A stretch of 25,960 nt of DNA, from IMG/VR virus record IMGVR_UViG_3300024965_000006, positions 1 to 25,960 of that record. One strand, given 5' to 3'. The translations under genes and the position numbers were made by a program. Below the pieces are notes generated by a model that was not told where the DNA came from, did not search any database, and saw nothing but the letters and a program-made list of their open reading frames with translations. Below are positions 9,520 through 19,932 of this stretch, piece after piece. Origin of the DNA: a virus. Position 1 is the first letter of the stretch. Each line of letters begins with the position of its first letter.

Positions 9520-9848
9520 AAAGGGCCGTTGATCTCCCAGAATGTCATCGACAGCAACGTGCCGTCAGCGTCGTTCAGTTCGGCAATCCACTCGGCAGGT
9601 TTGCTGGCTGACATTGCCAGCAGTTGTGTCCAGATGCTGGCGTTCTTGCCGATGACGCGATCCAACTCAGCTAAGCCCATCGTGTTTTCATCCTGGATCA
9701 GTGCCAACAGGTCGGCCAGCAAGGGCTGAGCGATAGCGGCGGCTTTTAGGCCTTCCAGGTACTTGAACTCATGGACAGCGGTTTCTTCGCCGCCGATGGT
9801 CAGTGTTTTGTCCGGGAAAATAATGTCAGCTTCGTTTGCGTTGCTCAT
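9447..9848 (-). CDS. G-like tail assembly chaperone
   Basis: This 133-residue protein sits between the tail tube gene and the tape measure gene, the position of lambda G-type chaperones. It begins MSNANEADIIFPDKTLTIGG, followed by an acidic/helical region (YLEGLKAAAIAQPLLADLLAL) and a C-terminus EINGPFLLRRLAFAKQFGT. This layout is common in tail chaperones of proteobacterial siphophages. Its start overlaps the stop of the upstream small DUF gene by three bases, suggesting coupled translation. Near codon 109 it contains a run that fits a -1 slip site leading into the T-like frame. Identification rests on position, size and frameshift rather than on strong motifs. Confidence 0.75.
   Translation of the reverse strand: MSNANEADIIFPDKTLTIGGEETAVHEFKYLEGLKAAAIAQPLLADLLALIQDENTMGLAELDRVIGKNASIWTQLLAMSASKPAEWIAELNDADGTLLSMTFWEINGPFLLRRLAFAKQFGTIVLNQPPAKS
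9516..9525 (-). other. Candidate -1 ribosomal frameshift site CCCTTTTTTG
   Basis: In the G-like frame the codons read GGC CCT TTT TTG. Two overlapping heptamers fit X XXY YYZ in phase: C CCT TTT and T TTT TTG. After a -1 slip the frame stays open past the G stop at 9447 to the T-like stop at 9241. Placement between tail tube and tape measure matches the known G/GT frameshift. A downstream stimulatory RNA fold was not assessed. Confidence 0.7.
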
Positions 9849-10018
9849 TCGACTTTTCCTTGCTCACGCAACCATTCATGCTGGCGTTGGTTGACGTTAA
9901 TGCTCTCGCCGGGTTTTTTCAGCTCGCCGCCGTGTTCGTGCTCGGCGATGAGGACGACCTCGACTTTTTCAGCGATTTCTTCTTGCCTGGTATTTTCTGC
10001 TACGGGTGGTTTTGCCAT
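9845..10018 (-). CDS. Small phage protein (DUF7210-like), 57 aa
   Basis: This short gene encodes MAKPPVAENT... with a core EHGGELKKPGESINVNQRQH followed by EWLREQGKVE. Small phage proteins with an H-x-G-x2-KPGE-I-x-V...WL-x2-G pattern are common next to tail genes and carry no established function. The purine-rich AGAGAG lies just ahead of the ATG, and the stop overlaps the start of the G-like gene (ATGA), so it is very probably translated. A DUF7210-like assignment is from memory of that pattern and is tentative. Confidence 0.75.
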   Translation of the reverse strand: MAKPPVAENTRQEEIAEKVEVVLIAEHEHGGELKKPGESINVNQRQHEWLREQGKVE

Positions 10019-10041
10019 GACGCTCTCTTTTAAAAGGGTGC

Positions 10042-10067
10042 GGGGGATTCGCTTGCGCTAATCCCCC
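10042..10067 (-). terminator. Hairpin after the tail tube gene
   Basis: A perfect 8-bp inverted repeat GGGGGATT/AATCCCCC encloses a 10-base loop between the tail tube stop and the next small gene. On the minus strand a CACCCTTTT tract follows a few bases later, not directly adjacent. It may be a partial terminator or an mRNA-stabilising hairpin that lets the abundant tube protein be made in excess of downstream genes. Confidence 0.55.
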
Positions 10068-10087
10068 TATTGGGTTTGTTGTAGGGT

Positions 10088-10837
10088 TTAGTCTTCTGTT
10101 TTCCAGCTGAAGAACTGGTCGCCTTCCGGGCGCAACGTGTCAAGAATTACGGTGCCGGTAATCGGCATTTCTGCGGTTTTGTCCTGGATCATCGCCAGGG
10201 CGCTGGGCGATAAGGACACCTTGTAAATTTCGCATCGGGTTTGTTTGTTGTCATCGGCTCGGTTTATGCCGCTAAACACCAAATAGTATTTTTTGTTGGA
10301 TGGTGCCGCAGAAATGTGATGCTGGGCAGCGTAGCTGTAATCGATTAATAGATCCTGAGCATCGGTAACAGCACCGGCGGCAATAATCTCTATCATGCCC
10401 TTGTCGGCGTGAACAATGTAGTCTGTCCCTGCAACATAGGTTGTTGTAGCGCCAACATTGGTCACAACGACACTGGAAACCTTAGTGTGCTTCAGGGCGA
10501 TGAACTTGCCTTTATAACCTTTGTGCGATTCATCGGTGACAGTTCCCGAAGCTTTGGCAGTGTTACCCGCTTGCAAGGCAATGGCTAAATGCTCCGGTTT
10601 GATCGAGCGCATTTGGATTGATATGTCATACTCGACTTTTTTTATGAACTCCGCACCGGTACCGGATGACCCTGAGACATTCTCAGTGACTTTTTCTTTG
10701 TCAATAGAGGGCGTCATCTCGACCGTTGATACATCGCCCAAAAATTCAAGACCTGTAGGATTTCCGGCGGCGTCACGCTCGCCAATAAAGACCGGACCTT
10801 GGCCTGAAAAATATCTGGTATCAAATAACTCTGACAT
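10088..10837 (-). CDS. Major tail tube protein
   Basis: This 249-residue protein has the features of a siphovirus tail tube subunit: an N-terminal GQGPVFIGERDAAGNPTGLE strand pair, a FLGDVSTVEMTPSIDKEKVTE segment, a central beta-rich insert with YVAGTDYIVHADKGMIEIIA, and a C-terminal EIYKVSLSPSALAMIQDKTA followed by a conserved-looking ITGTVILDTLRP...FFSW. It would polymerise into the tail tube. It is placed between the tail completion gene and the G/GT chaperones as expected. A hairpin directly after the gene may limit read-through, consistent with high expression. Confidence 0.85.
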   Translation of the reverse strand: MSELFDTRYFSGQGPVFIGERDAAGNPTGLEFLGDVSTVEMTPSIDKEKVTENVSGSSGTGAEFIKKVEYDISIQMRSIKPEHLAIALQAGNTAKASGTVTDESHKGYKGKFIALKHTKVSSVVVTNVGATTTYVAGTDYIVHADKGMIEIIAAGAVTDAQDLLIDYSYAAQHHISAAPSNKKYYLVFSGINRADDNKQTRCEIYKVSLSPSALAMIQDKTAEMPITGTVILDTLRPEGDQFFSWKTED

Positions 10838-10848
10838 GGTGTTGCCTC

Positions 10849-11289
10849 TTAGTAGACGTTGGTACGCGGTGGAATTGCGTTAAGTTTGACAACGACCCAA
10901 CCGTAAGGATGTTCCAGTTGTCGTGAATGTTGAGCCGATTCGATTTCGAACGACATACCGGATACGCCCGCGCGCACCCAGCTTTTAATTTCTTCAATCA
11001 GCGCCATTTCTGCCAGCTCAATAGCGACCGGCTCGCTGTCTTCTGCGACTTTAAGATGACCGATCAACAGCTGGCCGTGTTTGCCTTCTTTGGCGGTCAT
11101 GCCTAAGTTTTGGCTGTACTCGCTTTCGCCGGTGCTGACGACCATCACCACGCCGGCTTCAATCTCTCCGGGTTCATGCTGATTAAAATGCATCAGGCTG
11201 CGCTTAACTATTCGGGAGCTAAGTGCCGCTGCCAGTGATGCGACAATTGCCGCCTGGCGATTGTCAATGCGTTCTACCCAAGGCAGCAT
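10849..11289 (-). CDS. Tail terminator / U-like tail completion protein
   Basis: This 146-residue protein lies just upstream of the tail tube gene, where siphophages carry the tail terminator (lambda U type) that caps the tail at the head-proximal end. Segments such as MLPWVERIDNRQAAIVASLA, an acidic central part with LLIGHLKVAEDSEPVAIELA and a final GWVVVKLNAIPPRTNVY are consistent with a small alpha/beta protein. It overlaps the upstream morphogenesis gene by one base and precedes the tube gene by 11 bases. The call leans on synteny and size. Confidence 0.6.
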   Translation of the reverse strand: MLPWVERIDNRQAAIVASLAAALSSRIVKRSLMHFNQHEPGEIEAGVVMVVSTGESEYSQNLGMTAKEGKHGQLLIGHLKVAEDSEPVAIELAEMALIEEIKSWVRAGVSGMSFEIESAQHSRQLEHPYGWVVVKLNAIPPRTNVY

Positions 11290-16146: not shown

Positions 16147-16554
16147 TTACAGCGCAGCTGCGGACAAAAACAAACTGTCTATTTGCTCGCTCGTCCAACC
16201 CAACCCCTGAGCCACTTGTAATACCAGCGGAGCGCCGCGTAACAATACAGCGGCATACTCCCATTCGATTTGGACGTCCTGGGGCATCGCGGCGACCGCA
16301 GCGATAACATCATCTAGCAATCCCGCAGCGAGTAACGCCAGCCGAGCTTGCCGCATAGTGATTGACTGAGGCACTCCCCCGTACATATCGGCCGCAACGG
16401 CTTCTACGATTACCCATACCCCATTGTGCCAAAAACAGCCCTCAACCTGCCGGTCATAGGCGGGCGCAGGAGTACCCGCACGAAGCATCCAGCCTTGAGC
16501 ATTATCGGTAACTATGTGTTCGCCGGTATCCGGGCTGTAAAGATCGTCATTCAT
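16147..16554 (-). CDS. Tail-fibre-associated protein with XkdW-like C-terminus
   Basis: This 135-residue protein has the C-terminal pattern seen in many small tail-fibre and XkdW-like phage proteins: PQSITMRQARLALLAAGLL, then IEWEYAAVLLRGAPLVLQVA and a final GLGWTSEQIDSLFLSAAAL. The N-terminus is aromatic and beta-rich (YSPDTGEHIVTDNAQGWMLR; CFWHNGVWVIVEAVA). Such proteins accompany fibre genes as assembly factors or fibre tips. Its ATG follows the RT gene stop by two bases, so it is in the same transcript as the DGR, and a terminator follows it. It may be a chaperone or partner of the variable protein; this is inferred from position. Confidence 0.55.
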   Translation of the reverse strand: MNDDLYSPDTGEHIVTDNAQGWMLRAGTPAPAYDRQVEGCFWHNGVWVIVEAVAADMYGGVPQSITMRQARLALLAAGLLDDVIAAVAAMPQDVQIEWEYAAVLLRGAPLVLQVAQGLGWTSEQIDSLFLSAAAL

Positions 16555-16556
16555 TG

Positions 16557-16777
16557 TTAAACGCCTAGTCTGTTAAATAGGTTGTAGGAATTGGCCCAGT
16601 TCGCATGGCCTTTCCACGAAGAAAGAAATCGATCCAGCGCGACATCATCGTTAGATGCGCGATATTTTTTAATTTTCCGTTTGGCTGCAATCACGGATCG
16701 ACGCCTGATCAGCTTATGTGTCAGCCAGATACGATAACCAAGCCAATCAAGACCGCTCGATACATGGCCTATGCTCC
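16557..16777 (-). pseudogene. Detached C-terminal (thumb) part of the DGR reverse transcriptase
   Basis: This frame continues the RT after its premature stop, in the -1 register. It reads SIGHVSSGLDWLGYRIW, then LIRRRSVIAAKRKIKKYRAS, and ends ANWANSYNLFNRLGV. The V/I-S-x-G-[LI]-[DN]-[FW]-[LV]-GYR-x-[WF] segment is the conserved post-catalytic motif of DGR and group-II-like RTs, so it belongs to the same protein. Removing two bases (16778-16779) changes AAG TAA GGA into AAG TGG A and restores an FSKWSIGH reading, which fits my recollection of related RTs. The fragment has no start with a ribosome binding site of its own. Confidence 0.75.
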
Positions 16778-17521
16778 TTACTTTGAAAAAGACAGCCCCA
16801 TATGGACTTCTGAAAACCATTTAAGGCCCATTTGCAGAACCGCCAGCGCCTCCCGGCTGTGCGAGAAAATGACAATATCATCCATATAGCGTAGCCAATG
16901 CTTGATGCGCAGATTGTGCGTTAAATGCCTGTCAATAATATGGCCGTAAACATTGGCAAACAGCTGGCTGGTCAAGTTACCGATAGGAAGTCCACGACCA
17001 TCCTTTGGAAGAAAAGTCGAAATCAACGCTAGCGTGCCCTTGCAAATGATCTTCCTCTGTATCTCACCGTACAAAATAGCGCGGTTGATGCTGGCAAAAT
17101 ATTTTGAATAATCCAGCTTTAGCCAATGCGTAAAGCCACGCCTCATAATAGCCTGAGCTTCAGCCGCAGCTGAATGGGTTCCTTTGCCCGTCCTGCAAGC
17201 GTAATTATTGGGCAGGAAAGTTTTATCAAAAATAGGCTCTATGACATTGCATAAAGCATGCTGAGCTACGCGATCCGCAAAGGGTAATGCGGATATCTCT
17301 CGGCGTTTTGGCTCAGTGACAAAAAAGATGTTGGGCGGAGACGGCGTATAACTACCGTTGCGTAGCGCTTCTGAAAGCAGGCGGAGGTTAGCTGCCAAAT
17401 GCTCCTTAAATTGCAAATGGCCGGCGCTGTAGCGCTTGCCTTTCGATGCCTTTTGATAGGCTCGGTATAAGTTCGGCATACTGGCTATCTCTGCGATCAG
17501 GTTTTTGTATTTTTTACCCAT
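16778..17521 (-). CDS. DGR reverse transcriptase, catalytic part (frame broken before the thumb)
   Basis: This is the reverse transcriptase that copies the template repeat RNA into mutagenised cDNA. Reading from MGKKYKNL it has 247 residues with the DGR-type RT motifs: R-rich KRREISALPFADRVAQHAL (about 72-90), catalytic LKLDYSKYFASI with Asp137, GLPIGNLTSQLFAN (177-190) with the IGNxxSQ motif that marks DGR RTs instead of the retroviral QG, and RYMDDIVIF with Asp214 and Asp215. It stops right after GLSFSK, where the conserved thumb should begin; that part lies in the next frame. Joined, the protein would be about 320 residues, a normal DGR RT length. The start at 17521 was preferred over a TTG at 17614 because RT homology begins there, although its ribosome binding site is weak. 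Confidence 0.9.
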   Translation of the reverse strand: MGKKYKNLIAEIASMPNLYRAYQKASKGKRYSAGHLQFKEHLAANLRLLSEALRNGSYTPSPPNIFFVTEPKRREISALPFADRVAQHALCNVIEPIFDKTFLPNNYACRTGKGTHSAAAEAQAIMRRGFTHWLKLDYSKYFASINRAILYGEIQRKIICKGTLALISTFLPKDGRGLPIGNLTSQLFANVYGHIIDRHLTHNLRIKHWLRYMDDIVIFSHSREALAVLQMGLKWFSEVHMGLSFSK

Positions 17522-17668
17522 AAAATTGCAAGTCCGTCTTTCAATAACGCTTACTCGACGTTCCCTTGACCTCGTAATGTATTTGCCGAAGCAGGATGAT
17601 GAAGCTGACCACAAAACAGCGTGATCTGAGCCGGCGGCCTTGACCGGTCGGCTCGGTAGATAATCGTC

Positions 17669-17772
17669 GTCACTGGCAGCTCGCAGGCCAATGTTCCAGT
17701 TCGAGTTCCACGGATAGTTGTTCCAGTTGGAAGCGCGAGAGCCAGAGTTGGCGCCATTCGTACGCGTGCCGC
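17669..17772 (-). repeat. DGR template repeat (TR)
   Basis: This non-coding 104-bp copy of the 3' end of the variable protein gene lies between avd and the RT gene, the standard TR place. Aligned without gaps to the VR at 18191-18294 it shows 10 differences. Every one is an adenine on the TR coding strand (10 of 23 adenines changed, 0 of 81 other bases). Read in the variable-protein frame, the TR is rich in AAC codons, which can change to many residues but never to a stop. TR RNA is the RT template and is probably expressed with the surrounding transcript. The VP-like frame of the TR stays open into the RT frame but has no start codon. Confidence 0.95.
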
Positions 17773-17783
17773 TTTTATCTTCA

Positions 17784-18155
17784 TCATCCCTTTACCGCCT
17801 TGCTTTTTATCCAGGCGCCGAGCATTTTTCCGGTTTCAGCGAGATGGATTGACGCCACCTCATGCTGATTACGGCTGATGAGCCGCCTGTTTTCGTGAGC
17901 AAGAAATCGCAGTAAAAACCTTAAGTGCGCAAGCCCGGCATCGGCAAGGTACAGTTTTGATACCTGAGCCGACTTGCCGGCCTGCTGGAAAAGACTCACT
18001 TGATCAAACATTGCGCCGATCAACCGATCTCGAACCACATGATGAGATCGTCTAATATTAAGCGCAATCGGATAGACGTAATTGATAAACGATTCAAATC
18101 GCTCAATGATGGCCAATTGCCGCTGACTGGAGAATTCGTTACTTAACACGTCCAT
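17784..18155 (-). CDS. avd: DGR accessory variability determinant (Avd-like)
   Basis: This 123-residue, helix-rich, basic protein sits between the variable protein and the TR, as Avd does in the Bordetella phage DGR. It has the family segment INYVYPIALNIRRSHHVVRD followed by RLIGAMFDQVSLFQQA, a second helix pair LYLADAGLAHLRFLLRFLAH and a basic end (GAWIKSKAVKG). Avd forms a pentameric four-helix-bundle barrel that binds the RT and template RNA and is required for cDNA priming and retrohoming. A GGAAG sits ahead of its ATG on the minus strand, and it starts 17 bases after the variable protein stop. The frame is intact, unlike the RT. Confidence 0.9.
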   Translation of the reverse strand: MDVLSNEFSSQRQLAIIERFESFINYVYPIALNIRRSHHVVRDRLIGAMFDQVSLFQQAGKSAQVSKLYLADAGLAHLRFLLRFLAHENRRLISRNQHEVASIHLAETGKMLGAWIKSKAVKG

Positions 18156-18172
18156 CGCTCGCTTCCGCTCAC

Positions 18173-19303
18173 TTAAACAAGTTGCATGTGGTCACTGGCA
18201 GCTCGCAGGCCAATGGCCCAGTACGAGTTCCACGGATAGATGTTCCAGGAGGAAGCGCGAGAGCCAGAGAGGGCGCCATTCGAACGCGCGCCGCCTAGCA
18301 GTGTGCGCGTATTGGTATTATTGAGCATCTGTCCTCTGCCAGTACCTGCGCCATTGTTTCCGTTAACATCGCTCCATGCGAATGCAGTTGCCTGCGTTCC
18401 GGTATCTTGACCCCATATCCAGTGGTGTCCAGAGGCTTGCTCAATGCCATATTTTGACGTGTAGCCAGCGTTGCGCTGCGTAGTCGGGTACGTCGATGCG
18501 GTCGCATCTATGGACTGGTTTTCAGTGACTCCGAACGCCGCATCGACAAACTCATGCTCCCACATCAGGCGCTTTTTGTTGGCCCTGGCTAGTTCATTGG
18601 CTACCCACCAATTCAGCGTCGGGTAGGTTGCGGCACCGTTGCCGCCGAAAGCGGGTGGTATTTTTGGAAGTACCGTGCCCGAGGTGATATTTGATCCCGC
18701 CTTGCTGGTACCGTTGGCTGCTGTGTCAGTCGAGCAAAGATAGATATCCACCCACGTCATGCCGTTTACCAGAACCATGCCGCGGGGATTGGCTGCTCTG
18801 GGCCTAAATTTCAAATCCCAAATACTGAACAGGTTGATGCCAGCAATGCTGTCCACATCAGTCTGCGTCCAGATCATGCCGTTGCCGGTTGTAGCAAACG
18901 CCCCACCGGCGACCGTAGTACCGGCGGCAACTAAACCATAATGGAAACCTCCTATCATCAGGCTATTGGCTGTGGTGTAGCCGGTTGGTGCTGTGAAGCT
19001 GGCATCGGCGATGACAACCCCATCTGTGCAAGCATAGATAGCGTAATCGGTACCGCCTGACAACGCTGGCATAGTGATAGCTGTATCTGCCAGCCAATCC
19101 ACCGCGACACCTGCTACTATTGCGCGAGTTCCTGCCTTTACGCTGATTGTCCCCGTTCCTGTTTTTACGAAAGCAGGGCTTAATGAGTCTTTCTTATAAA
19201 ACCCATACAAATTTAGAGCGTCATTCAGATTGTTGAAATTAGCATCTACCTCAGCATGGGTTAATTCAGATCCCTTGCCCGAGCGTGTAGTGATGGCGAC
19301 CAT
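18173..19303 (-). CDS. DGR variable protein (C-type-lectin-fold fibre/receptor-binding protein)
   Basis: This 376-residue protein is the diversified target. It opens with the phage fibre motif TTRSGKGSELTHAEVDANFN, continues with a beta-rich shaft (residues of about 40-160), then a C-terminal domain with TWVDIYLCS, LMWEHEFVDAAFGVTENQ, HHWIWGQDTG and a final SYWAIGLRAASDH. The end fits the C-type lectin (formylglycine-generating-enzyme-like) fold of DGR proteins such as Mtd and TvpA. The VR covers about residues 337-371. Seven codons differ from the TR, changing T-A, T-S, N-L, N-S, N-I, N-Y and N-A. It probably binds a host surface ligand at the fibre tip. It lies among head genes rather than in the tail-tip cluster, so its attachment to the tail is inferred. 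Confidence 0.93.
   Translation of the reverse strand: MVAITTRSGKGSELTHAEVDANFNNLNDALNLYGFYKKDSLSPAFVKTGTGTISVKAGTRAIVAGVAVDWLADTAITMPALSGGTDYAIYACTDGVVIADASFTAPTGYTTANSLMIGGFHYGLVAAGTTVAGGAFATTGNGMIWTQTDVDSIAGINLFSIWDLKFRPRAANPRGMVLVNGMTWVDIYLCSTDTAANGTSKAGSNITSGTVLPKIPPAFGGNGAATYPTLNWWVANELARANKKRLMWEHEFVDAAFGVTENQSIDATASTYPTTQRNAGYTSKYGIEQASGHHWIWGQDTGTQATAFAWSDVNGNNGAGTGRGQMLNNTNTRTLLGGARSNGALSGSRASSWNIYPWNSYWAIGLRAASDHMQLV
18191..18215 (-). promoter_or_regulatory. Candidate initiation of mutagenic homing (IMH) segment
   Basis: The last 25 bases of the VR (coding-strand 3' end) are identical to the TR even at their four adenines, and identity ends sharply just beyond. In known DGRs the VR 3' end holds the IMH, where cDNA integrates and mutation stops. 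TR and VR diverge directly after GTGAC, as IMH and IMH* do elsewhere. The assignment is by position and comparison only. Confidence 0.5.
18191..18294 (-). repeat. DGR variable repeat (VR)
   Basis: These 104 bases at the 3' end of the variable protein gene are matched by the TR at a fixed offset of 522 bases. All 10 mismatches fall on TR adenines: two changed to G, five to T and three to C on the coding strand. The untouched bases keep the protein scaffold (SGSRAS, WN, YPWNS, IGLRAASD). The repeat ends 15 bases before the stop codon, leaving a DHMQLV tail outside the diversified part. Confidence 0.95.
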
Positions 19304-19336
19304 ATAAAACTCTTAACCCGCAAATATCGACTTGGA

Positions 19337-19849
19337 TTAGTTATCCAACTGAAACGTCAACCCGCCGACCGGATAACTCGGAACTGAGCCTGTTGTGATA
19401 TTGCGCGCCGATGTAAGCGGGGCACATACCAGCAAATTACCTGTGCCTGGTGTAGCCGTATCGACTATGCCCCACCAGCCGACGATATTCCAGTCCGATG
19501 TGGCTATTGGGAATGTAACAGCTGTCGCATTGCTAATGGTCCCGTTAGTGCCGGAACTGCCCCCCGTTACACTGCCATGAGTCCCTTTCCATGTTGTTTC
19601 ACTACGACTAATGGCAACCCGCGCATAGCCTCCGCCGGAGACCTCAGTGCCGGCACCTGCATCTGAACACGCCGTATTGTATAACGCCACGTAGTAACTG
19701 GACGGCGCCGATTCCGAAAAGGCTATGCCCCTAAAAACATGATCGTTAATCTTGTTTTCGGCGTAGTCAGTTAGCGCTCCGGCAAAGGCGGCGGACGGCA
19801 AGATAAAAGCCAGAGCCAAAAGCATAAGTATATTTTTTTTAATTTTCAT
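19337..19849 (-). CDS. Signal-peptide-bearing phage tail-type protein upstream of the DGR target
   Basis: This 170-residue protein starts at an ATG with AGGA six bases upstream. The first 23 residues (MKIKKNILMLLALAFILPSA, then AFA) form a typical Sec signal peptide with a plausible AFA-G cleavage site. The mature part (LTDYAENKINDHVFRGIAFS; YYVALYNTACSDAGAGTEVS; GGYARVAISRSE; AVTFPIATSDWNIVGWWGIV) closely follows a family of small beta-rich phage tail-fibre-type proteins. Such proteins normally lack an export signal. Lying just before the variable protein it may be a fibre partner or a decoration, or the signal could place it in the envelope of the lysogen. Function is not proven. Confidence 0.7.
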   Translation of the reverse strand: MKIKKNILMLLALAFILPSAAFAGALTDYAENKINDHVFRGIAFSESAPSSYYVALYNTACSDAGAGTEVSGGGYARVAISRSETTWKGTHGSVTGGSSGTNGTISNATAVTFPIATSDWNIVGWWGIVDTATPGTGNLLVCAPLTSARNITTGSVPSYPVGGLTFQLDN

Positions 19850-19932
19850 ACAAGTTCCTAGGTTATTTCTCATTGGGTGATGACGCCGATACTATATTGA
19901 TTTATCAAGCGAGATAACCGGATAACGTGCTG

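Follow-up and report, generated by a model that had tools for sequence, protein, structure and literature searches.

A BPP-1-type diversity-generating retroelement with a probably silenced reverse transcriptase and a proposed tandem-GA target hairpin

The IMG/VR virus record IMGVR_UViG_3300024965_000006 carries a diversity-generating retroelement (DGR), and the locus raises the question of whether this element can still vary its target protein. The window, that is the whole stretch of DNA analysed here, is the entire 25,960-base record. A first-pass annotation had described a complete DGR that would let the phage vary its probable receptor-binding protein. We find instead a BPP-1-type DGR whose reverse transcriptase (RT) is split by a frameshift and has probably been silenced in this lineage, and whose target would be marked by a hairpin containing a tandem GA step, which can form on the sense strand only. 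To this explanation as a whole we assign a probability of about 0.72. The DGR parts, all of which lie on the minus strand, are as follows.

18173..19303, minus strand: gene of the variable protein (VP), an Mtd homologue of 376 aa (Pfam mtd_2nd, 5e-20; phrog_11262, 2e-90; PDB 1yu1, E 2e-60)
Residues 1-34 of VP, minus strand: fibre-anchor peptide, common to L123-L167 and L091, otherwise unrelated fibres
Residues 35-376 of VP, minus strand: Mtd body, by Mtd homology
18188..18294, minus strand: variable repeat (VR), the 3'-terminal coding part of the VP gene and a gapless repeat of the template repeat (TR)
18185..18195, minus strand: initiation of mutagenic homing (IMH) end of VR, read directly as GTGACCACATG; the TR counterpart (IMH*) is GTGACGACGAT
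17784..18155, minus strand: Avd (accessory variability determinant), 123 aa (Pfam bAvd, 6e-30; PDB 4dwl, E 2e-27)
17666..17772, minus strand: TR, 145 nt upstream of the RT start, with the geometry of BPP-1
16778..17521, minus strand: first RT frame, 247 aa, with the motifs through YMDD and then a stop (phrog_1423, 4e-87; bRT 8ub7_A residues 1-247)
16557..16820, minus strand: remainder of the RT in another frame, with primer-grip strands and thumb, homologous to bRT 251-317
16778..16779, minus strand: 2-base insertion, seen against the junction sequences of relatives, which produces a TAA stop and a frameshift

The two repeats align without gaps over a 104-bp core, as the first-pass annotation had it, and all 10 mismatches in this core fall at TR adenines, which make up 23 of the 104 positions (hypergeometric P = 4e-8). 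These differences alter seven VP codons, mostly AAC, exactly the number first read; they correspond to Mtd residues 339, 341, 345, 352, 355, 361 and 363. An eleventh difference, G to C immediately beyond the core, is the IMH*/IMH difference, and both elements were found at the 3' ends of TR and VR. VP residues 30-374, VR included, match Mtd structures (1yu1 residues 52-379 aligned, E 2e-60), which by sequence assigns the protein an Mtd-type C-type lectin domain. We base the argument for this fold on homology to solved Mtd and not on our own AlphaFold model of VP (22 sequences), in which pLDDT, the confidence score, falls below 50 from residue 257 on, in the C-terminal lectin domain. The proposed role of VP as the DGR target is backed by profiles, solved-structure homologues and the TR/VR statistics, and VP is a probable receptor-binding protein homologous to BPP-1 Mtd.

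The other components likewise resemble known DGR families, a check that the first-pass annotation had left to database searches. Avd matches 8ub7 chain B in addition to bAvd and 4dwl, which identifies it as the accessory protein of a DGR. The best solved homologue of the RT is a DGR RT, bRT (8ub7 chain A, E 2e-71), and an RT tree places it within the DGR clade, with BPP-1-type RTs. The order VP, Avd, TR, RT had been recognized as archetypal, and the spacing proved to be that of BPP-1 as well. Across the parts, homology to Mtd, Avd and bRT ranges from E 1e-71 to 1e-20. Judged by these sequence features, the cassette is a BPP-1-type DGR. Like the mtd-avd-TR-brt locus of BPP-1, it carries VR at the 3' end of the Mtd homologue and TR about 150 nt before the RT, and the two RTs are about 50% identical. 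It differs from BPP-1 in its split RT, in its target hairpin (an 8-bp perfect stem in BPP-1, a tandem-GA form here), in the N-terminal anchor of VP and in its position between head genes of a phage whose tail genes are lambda-like.

The element is not complete as first annotated. The RT frame that opens at the usual MGKKYKNL start ends at residue 247 with the TAA at 16778-16780, since the 2-base insertion shifts the frame after YMDD. In the model of an intact sister RT (pLDDT 90, closest structure 8ub7), the lost residues form strands 245-264, which follow YMDD, and thumb helices 273-309. The lesion is shared by L002 (IMG/VR contig 3300024932_000032), which is identical to the window over 4.6 kb. 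In every other relative whose RT could be read, a set of 47 rows from about 40 distinct contigs, the frame runs uninterrupted through the thumb. Measured against L004, the lost part has not decayed: its non-synonymous divergence (pN) is 0.085, compared with 0.079 for the remaining RT. This suggests that the lesion is young, or that the part is still made somehow. By descent and anatomy the element is a DGR, and as sequenced it is probably not functional.

We then compared VR between closely related contigs. The window, L002, L003, L036 and L090 represent one phage; they show zero differences in their overlaps, and VR is identical wherever it is covered. Contigs with an intact RT behave differently. 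The sisters L005 and L006 differ at 7 positions over 2505 bp, all of them in VR at TR adenines. Between L094 and L112, 13 of 13 VR differences are at TR adenines, as are 15 of the 16 differences between L020 and L021, again in VR; the TR is unchanged in each of these pairs. Because near-identical sister contigs with an intact RT diverge strongly in VR, the DGR family appears from these sequences to be active in nature, while the window lineage gives no sign of activity. We infer that activity has been lost here: the DGR of this lineage was probably silenced recently, leaving its receptor-binding tip frozen. The expectation that the element would let the phage vary its protein thus holds for the relatives and for the past of this lineage, but probably not for its present, as the RT is frameshifted and VR is constant in its contigs. 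As a separate observation, L010 and L007, which are otherwise near-identical and have the same VR, differ at two TR positions, and one of these changes agrees with the VR base. The assembly may have mixed up TR with VR at this point, or the TR may truly have changed.

Several points weigh against silencing. The lineage contigs show no differences anywhere, so the constant VR may reflect a clonal population only, and these contigs may share reads if their assemblies overlap. The undecayed state of the lost RT part also fits a product that is still translated, by frameshifting or from an internal start at 16820. On that account the DGR would still be active at a low level, with ribosomes either slipping by -1 on the AAG that precedes the stop or initiating internally at ATG 16820, and enough RT, full-length or in two pieces, would be available. 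The downstream part of the RT is indeed conserved to the same degree as the upstream part, the lysine codon preceding the stop reads A AAG, where a -1 slip would restore the frame, and TR and VR have zero non-adenine differences over 104 bp. Inspection of the frameshift site by eye, however, found no canonical X XXY YYZ slippery heptamer, none of the relatives in the 47 rows uses a split RT, and VR does not vary across any of the lineage contigs that cover it, which together make residual activity unlikely. A sequencing or assembly error that hides an intact RT in the population is slightly less probable still: in other samples, contigs of this phage do end nearby (L003 at 16848, L036 at 17567, L090 at 16231), as if assembly were difficult there, but the identical lesion is present in the separate contig L002 and the insertion site is not a long homopolymer. 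The contig ends around the RT, where L036 and L090, from one sample, leave 16231-17567 uncovered, may also reflect mixed RT alleles in the population. A recent silencing of the RT is our preferred reading.

The locus raises a further question, namely what marks the target for homing. BPP-1 requires a hairpin or cruciform just 3' of VR, and the published stems are perfect, 7-10 bp long and closed by a GRNA loop (PMC3240598). Neither a hairpin search nor DNA folding found a perfect GC-rich inverted repeat of 7-10 bp 3' of VR in the window. As these standard approaches came up blank, we turned to a comparison across DGRs, which revealed another form, reading GAGC[GNNA]GCGA, whose flanks pair and which keeps the same distance from VR. 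In the window this element is as follows.

18157..18172, minus strand: target hairpin in the tandem-GA form GT-GA-GC[GGAA]GC-GA-GC, directly 3' of the VP stop and before avd; the 16-mer is GTGAGCGGAAGCGAGC

The hairpin thus consists of a GNNA loop, 2 bp, a tandem 5'-GA-3'/5'-GA-3' step and 2 bp. To see how common this form is, we surveyed 97 non-redundant DGRs and took the expectation from shuffled sequences. A first automatic hairpin score that penalized mismatches missed most tandem-GA cases and was dropped. Among GNNA-loop hairpins with two closing pairs, the stem continued by Watson-Crick pairing in 47 and by exactly A.G then G.A in 25, while the remaining 21 were spread over about 19 mismatch types. 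The tandem GA step was present in 24 of the 97 DGRs, against 0.2 expected; the antisense strand had no case, and a single case followed TR. In ten cultured or named DGR phages, VR had either a perfect stem nearby or no stem at all, and none of the ten showed tandem GA. In L025, L198 and L220 the tandem-GA hairpin takes yet another form, in which three successive purine mismatches (A.G, G.A, G.A) separate the paired segments.

We next examined pairing in a larger set, using a database pattern anchored on GTGACCAC in which position 2 and the outer pairs were left free. The pattern yielded 41 distinct sites with a TR nearby. Pairing, wobble included, was seen at positions 1, 2, 5 and 6 in 41, 41, 41 and 39 of these sites, respectively. 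The flanking pairs held in 98.8% of cells, 40 of which had changed on both sides, and covariation reached 0.739, compared with 0.197 +/- 0.03 when shuffled and at most 0.17 when slid. With only 30 less related sites retained, pairing held in 88 of 90 cells (shuffle maximum, 71). Pattern matches with no detected TR, a mixture of chance hits and truncated DGRs, paired far less. On a tree of 64 RTs, switching between the tandem-GA and perfect-stem forms takes 10 changes; well-supported branches force at least 7 of these. At position 7, beyond the outer pairs, an additional A.G opposition occurs in 27 of the 41 sites, which may represent an extended non-canonical stem or an overlapping stop codon.

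The same element could instead belong to the mRNA and control translation of avd, as a ribosome site or start-codon hairpin, given that in many members the avd start codon directly adjoins, or lies partly within, its 3' arm and that the sense strand is the mRNA strand. The distances argue otherwise. Measured from the IMH, the hairpin is always 7-10 nt downstream across the 41 confirmed sites, while its distance to the avd start ranges from -3 to +25 nt and reaches about 160 nt in L199, L262 and L290; such a fixed spacing to VR and variable spacing to avd speak against a mere ribosome site. The element also sits at the position of the BPP-1 hairpin, which was shown to be needed for homing with its machinery supplied in trans (PMC3240598), and it interchanges with the perfect-stem hairpin on the RT tree. 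We consider a role confined to avd translation improbable and infer that the target hairpin functions at the level of DNA.

How would such a hairpin be recognized? 5'-GA-3'/5'-GA-3' steps usually form sheared pairs, and the tandem GA step of the hairpin probably consists of sheared G.A pairs. Only the sense strand can fold in this way, because the complementary strand would have T.C mismatches. A DNA GNNA loop on two G-C pairs is, according to PMC4686876 (citing Hirao and colleagues), an extraordinarily stable mini-hairpin. DNA folding gave our hairpin -0.8 to -1.3 kcal/mol, compared with -11.4 for that of BPP-1, which counts against a stable structure; folding models perform poorly for GNNA mini-hairpins. 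Homing is reported to prefer targets in which the sense strand serves as lagging-strand template, where the cDNA is argued to anneal (PMC12875486), and whether a cruciform or a one-strand hairpin is formed was left unsettled in the BPP-1 work (PMC3240598). A hairpin of single-stranded sense DNA would fit both the strand-restricted folding and the lagging-strand preference (PMC12875486). We regard it as about an even bet that this is how a large fraction of phage DGRs label their target, with a hairpin that folds only on the sense strand and combines a GNNA loop with sheared G.A pairs in tandem.

The element of Guo et al. 2011 (PMC3240598) occupies the same site after VR, with a four-base GRNA/GNNA loop on the sense strand, but its stems are perfect over 7-10 bp where the window has 2 bp, tandem GA and 2 bp. 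Nanoarchaeal DGR hairpins (PMC4372165) are a variant of the same element, with a GRA triloop within the target gene and no tandem GA described. We did not find the tandem-GA form in the literature searched, whose partial coverage makes this weak evidence of novelty; as far as searched, it is a common and undescribed variant of the target hairpin.

The closest relatives of the cassette are the sister DGRs L004-L010, from an overlapping IMG/VR sample series, whose RT is 85%, Avd 91% and VP body 68-70% identical to those of the window. They share its tandem-GA hairpin, while their RT is intact and VR varies between near-identical contigs. Their cassettes correspond to window 16148-19088, and the phages are otherwise unrelated to the window at the DNA level. 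L091, in turn, is a DGR-less relative of the window phage (522-aa large gene 95%, portal 91% and protease 85% identical), and the slot equivalent to the DGR holds a 523-aa fibre with an N-terminus resembling that of VP. This N-terminal anchor is widespread among unrelated phage fibres, and in relatives many different N-termini precede the Mtd body. In L012 (84-kb contig IMGVR_UViG_3300038704_000019) a second RT of 434 aa lies at 9820-11124 on the minus strand, about 3 kb from an intact DGR; its top PADLOC match is a generic RT model, followed by RT_UG17.

Profile searches identified portal-like, minor head, Mu-like protease, tape-measure and lambda-like tail genes around the DGR, in agreement with the phage structural cluster proposed by the first-pass annotation. 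From this gene content, the genome is siphophage-like, with the DGR module among head and tail genes. A genome scan for host assignment returned only distant RTs, with identity of at most about 47%. The span of 16147-19849 first assigned to the DGR does hold the element, but also takes in two features that are not DGR parts.

16147..16554, minus strand: open reading frame 3' of the RT, function not assigned (phrog_6034)
19337..19873, minus strand: Gp80-like fibre gene, upstream (Pfam Gp80, 8e-36)

A counterpart of the former follows the RT in L004, L007, L010 and L018 and thus accompanies the cassette, so that this phrog_6034 frame moves together with it in several unrelated phages.

We propose that a BPP-1/Mtd-type DGR module occupies the receptor-binding slot of this siphophage-like genome. 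When functional, the module would use Avd and the RT to copy the TR transcript into cDNA with mutated adenines. This cDNA would take the place of VR at the Mtd gene's 3' end, guided there by the IMH and the hairpin just downstream, as established for BPP-1 and assumed here by homology. The recent 2-base insertion would split the RT after its catalytic motif and leave full-length RT absent or in trace amounts, with VR staying at its last version. The non-canonical hairpin would most likely act on single-stranded sense DNA and not as a symmetric cruciform, because only the sense strand can form it.

The cassette itself is of the textbook BPP-1 type; what it adds is an RT lesion beside apparently active sisters and the tandem-GA hairpin. 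An RT-broken DGR, together with apparently active close sisters and a DGR-less relative with an ordinary fibre, offers a natural experiment on the silencing and retention of hypermutation. The covarying tandem-GA hairpin bears on whether the target is a cruciform in double-stranded DNA or a one-strand hairpin, and in many DGRs the target element will go undetected if only perfect inverted repeats are sought. If our reading is true, the homing machinery or the single strand exposed by replication would recognize a sense-strand hairpin, not a cruciform.

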